Below, piece after piece: positions 26,592 through 30,195 of a stretch of 64,000 nt of DNA (position 1 is its first letter; the number at the start of each line of letters is the position of its first letter). The translations under genes and the position numbers were made by a program. The notes under the pieces are model-generated. The model was not told the origin of the DNA and did no database searches. It saw only the letters and a program-made list of their open reading frames with translations. Location: NCBI GenBank assembly GCA_031277805.1, contig JAITLR010000009.1, positions 558,001-622,000 of the forward strand, read 5' to 3'. The DNA is from Comamonas sp. Lineage in GTDB: Bacteria; Pseudomonadota; Gammaproteobacteria; Burkholderiales; Burkholderiaceae_C.

Positions 26592-26963
26592 ATGACCACC
26601 TCAAACATCCACAACGAACTGCGCGAGCATCTGCGGCAACTGCAAGCCGAGCTGCAGCTGCAAAAGCTGTGGTCATCCGTGGCGCCTGACCCCAAGGCGC
26701 TGGAGTCAACCGTCCCTTTCATGTATGACACGCTCAAGATCCATGAGTGGCTGCAGTGGGTCTACATCCCGCGCCTGCATGCGCTGATCGATGCCAATGG
26801 CGTTCTACCGCATCAAAGCCATGTATTCCCCCTGGCCGAGCATGAGTGGGAAAAGCGTACCGACTTTGACAAGCAGCATCTGCTGCGCCTGATCAACCGT
26901 ATTGATGCCACGCTCAACGGCTGTGCGATGACGCCGGACCTGCCGTCAGAATCCCAGAGCTGA
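26592..26963 (+). CDS. YqcC-family protein
   Basis: 123 residues from MTTSNIHNELREHLRQL. The region VPFMYDTLKIHEWLQWVYIPRLHALIDANGVLP matches the hallmark of the YqcC (DUF446) family, which has a conserved LQW-x-IPR segment. Function unknown; in E. coli yqcC sits with the tRNA pseudouridine synthase truC, which is not next to it here. A longer in-frame ATG at 26514 lacks conservation. Convergent with aroG, with a shared terminator in between. Confidence 0.8.
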   Translation: MTTSNIHNELREHLRQLQAELQLQKLWSSVAPDPKALESTVPFMYDTLKIHEWLQWVYIPRLHALIDANGVLPHQSHVFPLAEHEWEKRTDFDKQHLLRLINRIDATLNGCAMTPDLPSESQS

Positions 26964-26989
26964 GTCTCTTCCAGGAGCAGGCACCATAA

Positions 26990-27026
26990 AAACAGGCCAC
27001 GGAGCAAATTGTTCCGTGGCCTGTTT
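26990..27026. terminator. Bidirectional terminator between yqcC-like gene and aroG
   Basis: AAACAGGCCACGGA at 26990-27003 pairs perfectly with TCCGTGGCCTGTTT at 27013-27026; the stem is extended by G-T and C-G pairs. A-rich and T-rich flanks give U tracts on both strands. Confidence 0.85.
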
Positions 27027-27044
27027 CATTCATACTGCCCGCGT

Positions 27045-28205
27045 TCAGGCAGCGACTGCCGCTTCCTTCTTGCTGGCAGCTGCCGTTTCACGACGCTGCA
27101 GCACGGCCTGCGACAACTCCTCCAGCGTTGCCAGGGAATCATCCCAACCCAGGCAGGCGTCGGTAATGCTCTGACCATAGGTCAGATTGCAGACCTCGTC
27201 CTTGCCGGGAGTGAACTTCTGGGCTCCGCCTACAAGGTGGCCTTCGATCATCACGCCGAACACGCTGTTGGAGCCACCGGCGATCTGGCCCGCGATATCG
27301 CGCGCAACATCCTTCTGGCGCTCATGCTGCTTGTTGCTGTTGGCATGGCTGCAGTCCACCATCAGCGAAGGCGTCAGACCTGCAGCCTCCAGGTCCTTGC
27401 AGGCTGCCGCTACATGTTCGGCGTCATAGTTGGGGGTCTTGCCGCCACGCAGAATCACGTGGCAATCCTGATTGCCGCCCGTGTGCACGATGGCGACCTG
27501 ACCATTCTTGTGCACCGACAGGAAGTGATGGCCACGGCTGGCCGACTGGATGGCGTCGGTCGCAATGCGGATATTGCCGTCCGTGCCGTTCTTGAAACCA
27601 ATCGGCGCCGAGATGCCCGAAGCCAGCTCGCGGTGTACCTGGCTTTCAGTCGTACGGGCACCGATCGCACCCCAGCTGATCAGGTCACCGATGTACTGAG
27701 GCGAGATCACGTCCAGGAACTCGCTGGCAGCCGGCACACCCAGACGATTGATATCGATCAGCAGCTGGCGCGCAATGCGCAGACCTTCGTCGATGCGATA
27801 GCTCTGGTCCAGGTAGGGGTCGTTGATCAGTCCCTTCCAGCCCACGGTGGTGCGGGGCTTTTCGAAGTAGACGCGCATCACCACTTCCAGCGTGTCCTTG
27901 TACTGCTCTCGCACCACGGCCAGACGGCGGGCGTAATCCAGAGCTGCAGCCGGATCGTGAATCGAGCAAGGACCGACGATGACCAGCAGGCGGTCATCTT
28001 GCGCCTGCATGATGTTGTGAATGCTGCGACGGGTATCGCCGATCAGAGTCTCGACGGCCGTGCCGCGAATCGGGAAGAAGCGAATGAGGTGCTCTGGAGG
28101 GGGTAACACTGTGATGTCCTTGATACGTGCGTCGTCGGTCTGGCCTGTCTTGGGAGAACCGGTGCGATACCAGGAATCGGTGGAGGAAGTGTTCAGAGCA
28201 GTCAT
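27045..28205 (-). CDS. aroG: 3-deoxy-7-phosphoheptulonate synthase (DAHP synthase, type I)
   Basis: 386 residues. Condenses phosphoenolpyruvate and erythrose 4-phosphate, the first step of the shikimate pathway. AroG/F/H family motifs: LLVIVGPCSIHDPAAAL, RVYFEKPRTTVGWKGLINDP, GARTTESQVHRELASG, GFKNGTDGNI, ILRGGKTPNYD and SLMVDCSHANSNK. An Ala/Lys-rich tail of about 15 residues is extra. The upstream leader (28329-28391) encodes an aromatic-rich peptide followed by a terminator 58 bases before the start, which implies attenuation by charged aromatic tRNAs. Which amino acid inhibits the enzyme allosterically cannot be told from the sequence. aroE of the same pathway is at 35758. Confidence 0.96.
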   Translation of the reverse strand: MTALNTSSTDSWYRTGSPKTGQTDDARIKDITVLPPPEHLIRFFPIRGTAVETLIGDTRRSIHNIMQAQDDRLLVIVGPCSIHDPAAALDYARRLAVVREQYKDTLEVVMRVYFEKPRTTVGWKGLINDPYLDQSYRIDEGLRIARQLLIDINRLGVPAASEFLDVISPQYIGDLISWGAIGARTTESQVHRELASGISAPIGFKNGTDGNIRIATDAIQSASRGHHFLSVHKNGQVAIVHTGGNQDCHVILRGGKTPNYDAEHVAAACKDLEAAGLTPSLMVDCSHANSNKQHERQKDVARDIAGQIAGGSNSVFGVMIEGHLVGGAQKFTPGKDEVCNLTYGQSITDACLGWDDSLATLEELSQAVLQRRETAAASKKEAAVAA

Positions 28206-28263
28206 GGCAATCTTTCGTGAGGTGTTGGATCGTGAAAACCGGGGGTGCTGAAACGTAGGGATG

Positions 28264-28298
28264 AAAAAAAACCGCCGGGCTTTGCAGCTTCGGCGGTT
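28264..28298 (-). terminator. Attenuator (intrinsic terminator) ahead of aroG
   Basis: On the minus strand AACCGCCG, a 13-base loop region and CGGCGGTT are followed by further T, giving eight T in a row (28264-28271). It lies between the leader peptide stop (28329) and the aroG start (28205). Its 5' arm CCGCCG is also complementary to CGGCGG near the end of the leader frame (28340-28345), which would form a competing antiterminator. Confidence 0.8.
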
Positions 28299-28328
28299 CT
28301 TTGGGAGGTGTTTGCAGGGTGCGCGCTC

Positions 28329-28391
28329 TTACCTCTCAGCCGCCGGGGGCGAGAACCAAAAGTAAAAGAAATAGGCGCGTTGCGTTTGCAT
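28329..28391 (-). CDS. Aromatic-rich leader peptide of aroG
   Basis: A 20-codon frame, ATG at 28391-28389 and TAA at 28331-28329, encoding MQTQRA, then YFFYFWF, then SPPAAER. Seven consecutive aromatic codons (two Tyr, four Phe, one Trp) in a peptide this short are the hallmark of a transcription-attenuation leader, as in the E. coli pheA leader. GAAAG six or so bases before the ATG is a weak Shine-Dalgarno. The terminator at 28264-28298 follows after 30 bases. Candidate promoter: TTGCAA (28421-28426), 16-bp spacer, TACATT (28399-28404), which would start the RNA almost at the ATG; a promoter further upstream is also possible. Confidence 0.8.
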   Translation of the reverse strand: MQTQRAYFFYFWFSPPAAER

Positions 28392-28489
28392 GTCTTTCAA
28401 TGTAGCACAGCTCTTTTGCATTGCAACATCTGCAGCCGGCGCAACAGTTCTGCCCGGAACAGGTTTCCCCTCTGATACGGGGCATTTTT

Positions 28490-28600
28490 CATAATTTTTT
28501 GAACGCATGTTTTTTGCGTTTTTATTTATTTTTCAGAATTTTATTGATATTAATTTTCATTAAATCCCATTTAATGCGATTTTTCAGCGAATCAACAATA
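28490..28600 (-). promoter_or_regulatory. AT-rich island with Fur-like box upstream of aroG
   Basis: About 110 bases with very low GC in a GC-rich genome. It holds TGATATTAATTTTCA at 28545-28559, which read on the minus strand matches the 7-1-7 Fur pattern TGATAATNATTATCA at 12 of 14 positions, and next to it a perfect 8-bp inverted repeat CATTAAAT-CCC-ATTTAATG at 28558-28576. Only aroG is transcribed away from it. An UP element or nucleoid-protein site is an equally simple explanation. Confidence 0.4.
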
Positions 28601-28663
28601 TTCACGCTCAGGCATCAAAACACCCTTGAAAAACCCTGCTGACAGACAATTGCCGCCCTCGGA

Positions 28664-28699
28664 AACGAAAAAACCCCGGTCTGCCATGCAGAGCGGGGT
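28664..28699 (-). terminator. Intrinsic terminator of tldD
   Basis: On the minus strand ACCCCGCTCTGC and GCAGACCGGGGT pair with one mismatch around the loop ATG, followed by five further T. It lies about 36 bases after the tldD stop. Confidence 0.8.
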
Positions 28700-28734
28700 C
28701 TTGCTTTCGGCAGAAAACCCGCCGGAATTCTCCG

Positions 28735-30195
28735 TCAGGCCGTACCGCCGACCGTCAGGCCGTCGATGCGCAGCGTCGGCTGACCCACGCCCACAGGAAC
28801 GCTCTGACCTTCCTTGCCGCAGGTGCCTACGCCCGAGTCCAGACGCATATCGTTGCCTATCATGCTGATGTGCTTGAGCGATTCAGGGCCGCTGCCGATG
28901 ATGGTCGCGCCCTTGACGGGGTACTGGATCTTGCCGTTTTCCACCCAGTAGGCTTCGCTGGCGGAGAACACGAACTTGCCGCTGGTGATGTCCACCTGGC
29001 CGCCGCCGAAGTTGGTGGCGTACAGGCCCTTCTTGATGGAGCCAATGATCTCCTGCGGATCCTTGTCACCACCCAGCATATAGGTGTTGGTCATGCGCGG
29101 CATGGGGATGTGGGCGTAGCTTTCGCGGCGGCCATTACCCGTGGGCTTGACGCCCATCAGGCGCGCATTCATGGAATCCTGAATATAGCCCTTGAGGATA
29201 CCGTCCTCGATCAGCATATTACTCTGGCTGACGTGGCCTTCGTCGTCCACATTGAGCGAACCACGGCGGTCGGCAATCGTGCCGTCATCCAGCACCGTGA
29301 CACCCTTGGCCGCCACGCGCTGGCCGATACGGCCGCTGAAAGCGCTGGAGCCCTTGCGATTGAAGTCACCTTCCAGCCCATGACCCACGGCCTCGTGGAA
29401 CAGCACGCCAGGCCAGCCCGAGCCCAACACCACCGTCATCACCCCAGCTGGAGCGGGACGTGAGTCCAGGTTCACCAGCGCCGCATGCACAGCCTCGTCT
29501 ACATACTGGCTGATCTGCTCATCACTGAAATACGCCAGACCGAAGCGACCACCGCCACCGGAGGAGCCCACCTCGCGGCGGCCCTTTTGCTCGGCGATCA
29601 CCGTCACCGACAGGCGCACCAGCGGACGCACATCGGCCGCCAGCGTGCCATCGGCACGCGCCACCAGCACCACGTCATATTCGCTGGCAAGGCCCGCCAT
29701 GACCTGCACGATGCGCGGGTCCTTGGCTCGGGCCAGTTTCTCCACCTTGCCCAGCAGTTCGACCTTGGCCGTGCTGTCCAGGGTACCGATGGGGTCCAGG
29801 CTCGGATACAGCGAACGGCTTTGTGCGATCTTGGAAGCACCGGCCTTGACACGGCGGGTCTGAGAAGCGGCGGAGATGGAGCGCACGGTACGCGCGGCAT
29901 CCAGCAACGAAGCCTCGGAAATATCATCGGAATAGGCAAACGCCGTCTTCTCTCCGCTCACGGCACGTACGCCCACGCCTTGATCGATGGAGAAGGAGCC
30001 GGTTTTGACTATGCCCTCTTCCAGGCTCCAGCCTTCGGCGCGCGTGTACTGAAAGTACAGATCGGCATCATCCACCTGATGCGATCGGATTTCAGCCAAT
30101 GCACGGGAGAGATGGGTCTCGTCCAGGCCAAAAGGCTCGAGCAGCAGTTGGCGGGCCGTGGCCAGACGTTCGATGGTGGGTTCGCGGGAGATCAT
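28735..30195 (-). CDS. tldD: TldD metalloprotease subunit
   Basis: 486 residues from [16 protein letters not shown], close to the 481 of E. coli TldD. With TldE (PmbA) it forms a protease that trims unfolded peptides and matures microcins and similar precursors. The zinc motif [18 protein letters not shown] (first His about residue 267) is intact, as are [24 protein letters not shown] and the C-terminal [32 protein letters not shown] at 30204 is a possible alternative start; neither start has a clear Shine-Dalgarno. No tldE/pmbA gene is in the window. Confidence 0.95.

Follow-up and report, generated by a model that had tools for sequence, protein, structure and literature searches.

The gene whose regulation is considered here occupies positions 28205-27045 of the window, that is, of the whole 64-kb stretch of Comamonas DNA that was analysed. 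It is read from the minus strand, as are all elements of the leader device in front of it; the original prediction had given no strand. Profile matches place its product among the class I DAHP synthases, since it matches the Pfam model DAHP_synth_1 and reaches 531.5 bits with the DAHP synthase equivalog TIGR00034 (cut-off 173.2). The curated AroG equivalog model was just missed (551.8 bits, cut-off 568). The name aroG, under which the gene had been introduced, thus stands as far as DAHP synthase is meant, but it is loose as a reference to AroG itself. The leader region sits on the minus strand, downstream of tldD. Inspection by eye of the stretch between tldD and the aroG promoter revealed an inverted repeat with a T run (28660-28700, minus strand), which looks like the tldD terminator and, if so, would make aroG a separate transcription unit; this repeat is absent from the minus-strand listing of the terminator scan.

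Upstream of aroG, a frame of 20 codons, MQTQRAYFFYFWFSPPAAER (28391-28329), runs from an ATG at 28391-28389 to a TAA at 28331-28329 and is kept in relatives. It contains the control codons Tyr-Phe-Phe-Tyr-Phe-Trp-Phe (YFFYFWF, 28373-28353), of which the terminal YFWF is the most conserved part; coordinates and peptide were confirmed as they had been predicted. Among the ATG frames of 10-60 codons in the 64-kb window, it is the only one to reach an aromatic content of 7/8 (as three nested starts of one frame), and the next best, again a single frame, reaches 5/8. This uniqueness, together with the recurrence of the leader in relatives, led us to reject a chance frame.

Between the leader stop codon and aroG lies the intrinsic terminator that had been foreseen there, a hairpin of regions 3 and 4 followed by eight T (28299-28264). 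Its 5' arm CCGCCG (28296-28291) pairs with the 3' arm CGGCGG, the T run occupies 28271-28264, and the hairpin has a folding energy of -17.8 kcal/mol. A terminator with dG of -8 or lower is present in 133 of 134 family leaders. The terminator scan alone is weak evidence because a palindromic hairpin scores on the other strand too, and 59 of 107 reverse-strand controls did score. Region 1, UUCUCGCC (28355-28348), lies just past the Trp codon and would form the 5' side of the 1:2 (pause, or anti-antiterminator) hairpin. Region 2, CGGCGGCUGAGAGGU (28345-28331), is a partner of either region 1 or region 3, and region 3 (28309-28291), the 3' side of the antiterminator, consists of ACCUC (28309-28305) and of the same CCGCCG that serves as the terminator 5' arm. 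The complementarity on which an antiterminator had been proposed, between CGGCGG in the leader arm (28345-28340) and CCGCCG, is indeed there. The antiterminator and 1:2 alternatives both fold as expected. The whole leader with its terminator folds better than shuffled sequences (z -2.17; 6 of 200 shuffles). When the terminator 3' arm is left out (28359-28286), CGGCGG:CCGCCG and GAGGU:ACCUC form with -20.1 kcal/mol (z -0.07 against shuffles), and the leader end alone (28361-28329) gives the 1:2 hairpin UUCUCGCC/GGC.GAGAG with -10.8 kcal/mol (z -0.63). Since these two folds are no better than those of shuffles, the weight of the argument rests on comparison.

The probable promoter (28426-28399) consists of TTGCAA (28426-28421), 16 nt and an extended -10 element, TGCTACATT (28407-28399), in which TACATT is preceded by TG; the leader ATG begins after seven further bases. 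A simple promoter scan listed no promoter in 26900-28760. In the family, TGTGCTACATT is conserved upstream of the leaders, and a -10 box is found 6-9 nt before the leader ATG in 123 of 134 cases (mode 7; 3.4% in shuffles), the base before the ATG being C in 75%. With usual promoter geometry, the first transcribed base would be at or next to the A of the ATG. An SD-like four-base motif at -16 to -4 was found before none of the 134 leaders, and before 80 of the 134 aroG starts, which are placed approximately. Because the leaders have no Shine-Dalgarno motif but have a -10 box 6-9 nt from the ATG, they are probably translated from leaderless mRNA. Leaderless mRNAs have been reported in Burkholderia cenocepacia and Cupriavidus metallidurans.

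Conservation of the region extends well past its close relatives, for the aromatic codons, the leader frame, the terminator and the antiterminator pairing alike. In a sample of the GTDB family, upstream DNA of the best AroG match was obtained from 143 of the 150 genomes searched; in G040, G043, G068, G074, G112 and G115 the best AroG place was not listed, and G055 gave no match. A leader at least 5/8 aromatic precedes the gene at 138 of the 143 loci, two more reach 4/8 and three have none. Two of the latter are cut by contig ends; at the third (L222, genome G140) the gene is the second of a tandem DAHP synthase pair, and a leader, MLFRAYFFFWFYLCRPAVRG, is situated upstream of the first gene. 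Among 80 named relatives (Comamonas, Delftia, Acidovorax, Variovorax and others) 79 carry the leader, and the last has just 31 upstream bases. Altogether, the gene start could be placed at 218 loci, and 213 of these have a leader of at least 5/8; counted by distinct upstream stretches, the figure is 205 of 210. Eight named loci share an identical stretch with the family sample. None of the 218 reverse complements reaches 5/8. The main count used ATG starts only, while the follow-up and the scans at the order and class levels allowed GTG and TTG too. Analyses of 134 or fewer leaders exclude those below 5/8 and five loci placed only in the later scan.

Phe occurs in all 134 family leaders and is the commonest (mean 4.51 per leader), Tyr occurs in 131 (mean 1.60) and Trp in 126 (mean 0.99), so Tyr is missing from three leaders and Trp from eight; 123 contain all three. 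In the quartet beside region 1, Tyr is conserved in 107, Phe in 132, Trp in 120 and the last Phe in 124 of the 134. Phe is encoded by TTC after Trp in 114 leaders and by TTT before Trp in 125, a difference which may be explained by the location of region 1 (UUCUC) on the Phe-Ser codons following Trp. The third base of TTn and TAn codons in the control region is a pyrimidine in 741 of 742 cases, compared with 264 of 354 and 136 of 366 when the other frames are read, a contrast overstated because the frames were chosen for aromatic content; a third-base pyrimidine is what a translated aromatic run needs. A stalled ribosome usually reaches about 12 nt past its A-site codon. Stalls on YFWF would thus cover region 1 and stalls further upstream would not, and we take YFWF to be the actual control sequence, a single group of codons serving Phe, Tyr and Trp. 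Its conservation suggests that scarcity of any one of the three could be enough to release aroG; a response to the three together is what the codons predict.

Support for the antiterminator came from matched changes in its two arms. The terminator 5' arm is altered in 12 of 129 family sequences, four of the 133 (L208 among them) having been dropped from this count for want of a recognised arm. In 10 of the 12 the leader arm is changed to match (GACGG with CCGTC, AGCGG with CCGCT), and the other two pair by wobble. As the terminator 3' arm keeps CCGGCGG in nine of these 10, the partner following the 5' arm is the leader arm. The observed pairing was reached in none of 300 trials in which arms were swapped among sequences, a procedure that does not keep relatedness. 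Many of the 12 may be related, and these counts are of sequences and not of independent events; AGCGG/CCGCT (L190, L223) and GGCGA/TCGCC (L208) nevertheless argue for more than one event. In L208 (184-287), leader arm and terminator 5' arm are changed together, and the terminator 3' arm has lost its pairing at the changed base. The DNA of the leader arm is kept across reading frames (frames 0, 2 and 1 in 106, 23 and 3 of 132). The window's leader is itself one of the frame-shifted ones. It reads SPPAAER; in most close relatives the reading is SVPGG, followed by the stop.

The structures were also compared in an alignment of 60 of the 133 sequences, chosen for diversity; ten variants were forced in after having been seen, which favours finding matched changes, and misaligned leader arms (e.g. 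L201, L212) were counted as unpaired. In this alignment the antiterminator is 87.3% paired and has seven cells changed on both sides, a number reached in 0 of 500 shuffles, and its covariation score was reached in 10 of 500. Weaker measures stand beside these: pairs with a both-side change (40 of 500 shuffles) and further pair types (399 of 500). Controls slid by +2 and +3 contain more both-side cells (9 and 11), but only 31% and 60% of their cells are paired. For the terminator helix the pairing is 98.1%, and a single both-side change was counted (63 of 500 shuffles). Apart from those weaker measures, the comparison supports an antiterminator whose formation would exclude the terminator, as expected of a ribosome-mediated attenuator. 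The 1:2 hairpin is less secure. Its outer helix is 93.7% paired in the 60 relatives, with five both-side cells in four pairs (1 of 500 shuffles), a column count in its favour; however, the +3 slid control also gives five such cells, and a laxer best-match test does not support it (236 for own partners against a random mean of 237, with 658 of 1000 at least as high).

Outside the family, the leader was found at 13 of 28 loci of the order (L226-L253). The 28 came from the best 30 loci of a search that matched 44 of 60 genomes, and one of the 13 (L235) starts with TTG and is doubtful. The second closest outside-family relative among these best 30 loci (L227, 73% identical) is without a leader. 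In the wider class, one of 29 loci has a candidate, the doubtful GTG frame of L266. In the other 16 of the 60 Burkholderiales genomes nothing matched this DAHP synthase, and the unrelated class II enzyme may be used there instead. With a covariance model, 58 of 60 family genomes, many of them sources of the model, were found to carry the element, as were 34 outside-family genomes among 120 searched in the order. Sixteen of the 34 were cross-checked: in 13 the element is directly upstream of a DAHP synthase gene, and three are weak matches elsewhere. In each of the ten family genomes G001-G010, the best match falls immediately before the AroG place. Copies at other genes of the window's genome were rejected, as the model gives one strong match there, at aroG (E 1.1e-17), the ten further matches at E <= 1 being no better than 0.0125.

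The same genome has a second DAHP synthase gene (L002, G000:C17:75419-76540), 54% identical to the first and excluded from the upstream counts. A leader device was rejected for it, the best upstream frame being 2/8 aromatic, and the two genes are therefore probably under different control. Tandem DAHP synthase genes were noticed at G171:C1:2636369-2638526, G140:C27:140823-143010 and G258:C127:14423-16499; in G171, as in G140, an aromatic leader stands before the first gene of the pair.

In E. coli, TyrR and TrpR share control of three DAHP synthase genes, and the original prediction set the leader against this arrangement. The contrast is backed by the near-absence of both regulators from 60 family genomes, where the TrpR model exceeded its cut-off in none (one weaker match) and the TyrR helix-turn-helix model in three (four weaker matches), E. 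coli controls being positive for both. Searches of the window's genome with the two models found nothing. The three family genomes with TyrR keep the aromatic leader.

We are highly confident that the aroG leader is a classical ribosome-mediated transcription attenuator, a reading whose observed basis is the leader frame and its conservation, together with the pairings and the antiterminator's matched changes. From these we infer the transcription start, translation, stalling, and the amino acid response with its direction. Transcription would begin at or beside the leader ATG, and a ribosome translating the leader would trail RNA polymerase. As long as the three aromatic tRNAs are all charged, it would arrive at the stop codon, inside region 2 or immediately beyond it, and mask this region, allowing regions 3 and 4 to form the terminator and leaving aroG off. 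If Tyr, Phe or Trp tRNA were short, the ribosome would stall on Tyr-Phe-Trp-Phe and cover region 1, so that region 2 could pair with region 3 and aroG be transcribed. Without translation, the 1:2 hairpin would form and the terminator would stand. Probably, then, aroG is turned up when Phe, Tyr and Trp run short, and nearly all relatives examined in the family carry the device.

How many amino acids such an attenuator would sense is less certain. We lean slightly towards a leaderless device with three inputs, in which YFWF lets shortage of any one aromatic amino acid open aroG, thereby doing the work of E. coli TyrR and TrpR in the greater part of the family and in some other Burkholderiales. 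It might instead respond mainly to either Phe or Trp, in which case the remaining aromatic codons would be passengers. The presence of Phe in every leader and its high frequency agree with this, as does the AroR leader of Corynebacterium glutamicum, which holds Tyr and is reportedly unresponsive to it (PMC11802643). Nevertheless, Tyr and Trp are nearly as widespread and keep fixed places beside region 1, and a neutral single Trp codon would hardly persist so widely; we regard a one-amino-acid sensor as possible but the less probable choice.

Two further explanations depart from cis attenuation as the full account. The terminated leader RNA or its peptide could also act in trans, like rnTrpL and peTrpL of Sinorhizobium meliloti, with attenuation only a part of the function. 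The leaderless layout is the same as that of rnTrpL (PMC7298713) and the leader is strongly conserved; however, the peptide C-termini vary widely, the leader-arm DNA is in different frames, and cis structures account for the conserved stretches, which makes an additional trans role unlikely. That a constitutive terminator merely follows a chance T-rich frame, with no regulation at all, would suit the poor specificity of the terminator scan, but it is contradicted by the comparative evidence of conservation, frame and matched changes, and we give it practically no credence. If the three-input attenuator is correct, it would explain how entry into the shikimate pathway is controlled in a large bacterial group with little sign of TrpR or TyrR, and one RNA switch would take three amino acid inputs, a natural three-amino-acid sensor. 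The aroG leader would also be a test case for attenuation with a leader translated from leaderless mRNA.

A known Rfam family was rejected, with no match in the 64-kb window (the best score in the region, STnc240, was 21.9 bits against 55). Among the literature matches listed, none describes a DAHP synthase attenuator of Burkholderiales; the likeliest earlier report, Vitreschak 2004 (FEMS Microbiol Lett 234:357), lies outside that search, and if this survey of proteobacterial attenuators describes the device, its outline is already known. In the searched literature, YFWFS, AYFWF and FYFWF turned up as peptide motifs only in an unrelated medical case report. Attenuation of aroG is supported by the conservation and the matched changes, but for a DAHP synthase gene it is not unprecedented.

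The pheL and trpL leaders of E. coli have ribosome binding sites, whereas the aroG leader here shows none. Otherwise, the pheL-pheA and trpL-trpE attenuators (named in PMC11802643) resemble it in their leader with codons for the product, the 1:2 (here only predicted), 2:3 and 3:4 pairings and the intrinsic terminator, although each serves one amino acid and they precede branch genes, not a DAHP synthase gene. An attenuator of E. coli aroF was reported or proposed, according to a table entry citing work from 1980. The C. glutamicum AroR leader precedes the aroF (DAHP synthase) operon and attenuates it by Phe and Tyr codons (PMC11802643, on Neshat 2014); this is an actinobacterium, however, the codons are Phe-Tyr-Phe with no Trp mentioned in that account, and the reported response is to Phe. 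The uORFC-13-1 motif before aroF in Acholeplasma likewise combines a predicted uORF and a terminator before a DAHP synthase gene, but it was described, in other bacteria, with at least one Phe codon and with a ribosome binding site in the model (PMC8632094). The trpL leader of S. meliloti opens at the first base of its transcript, rnTrpL (PMC7298713), which is stated there and deduced here, and it is a Trp attenuator before trpE(G). The mechanism itself is classical, and DAHP synthase attenuators have already been reported or proposed elsewhere; what would be new here is the predicted sensing of three amino acids together, the probable leaderless start, and the occurrence in genomes where the E. 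coli repressors have left little trace.
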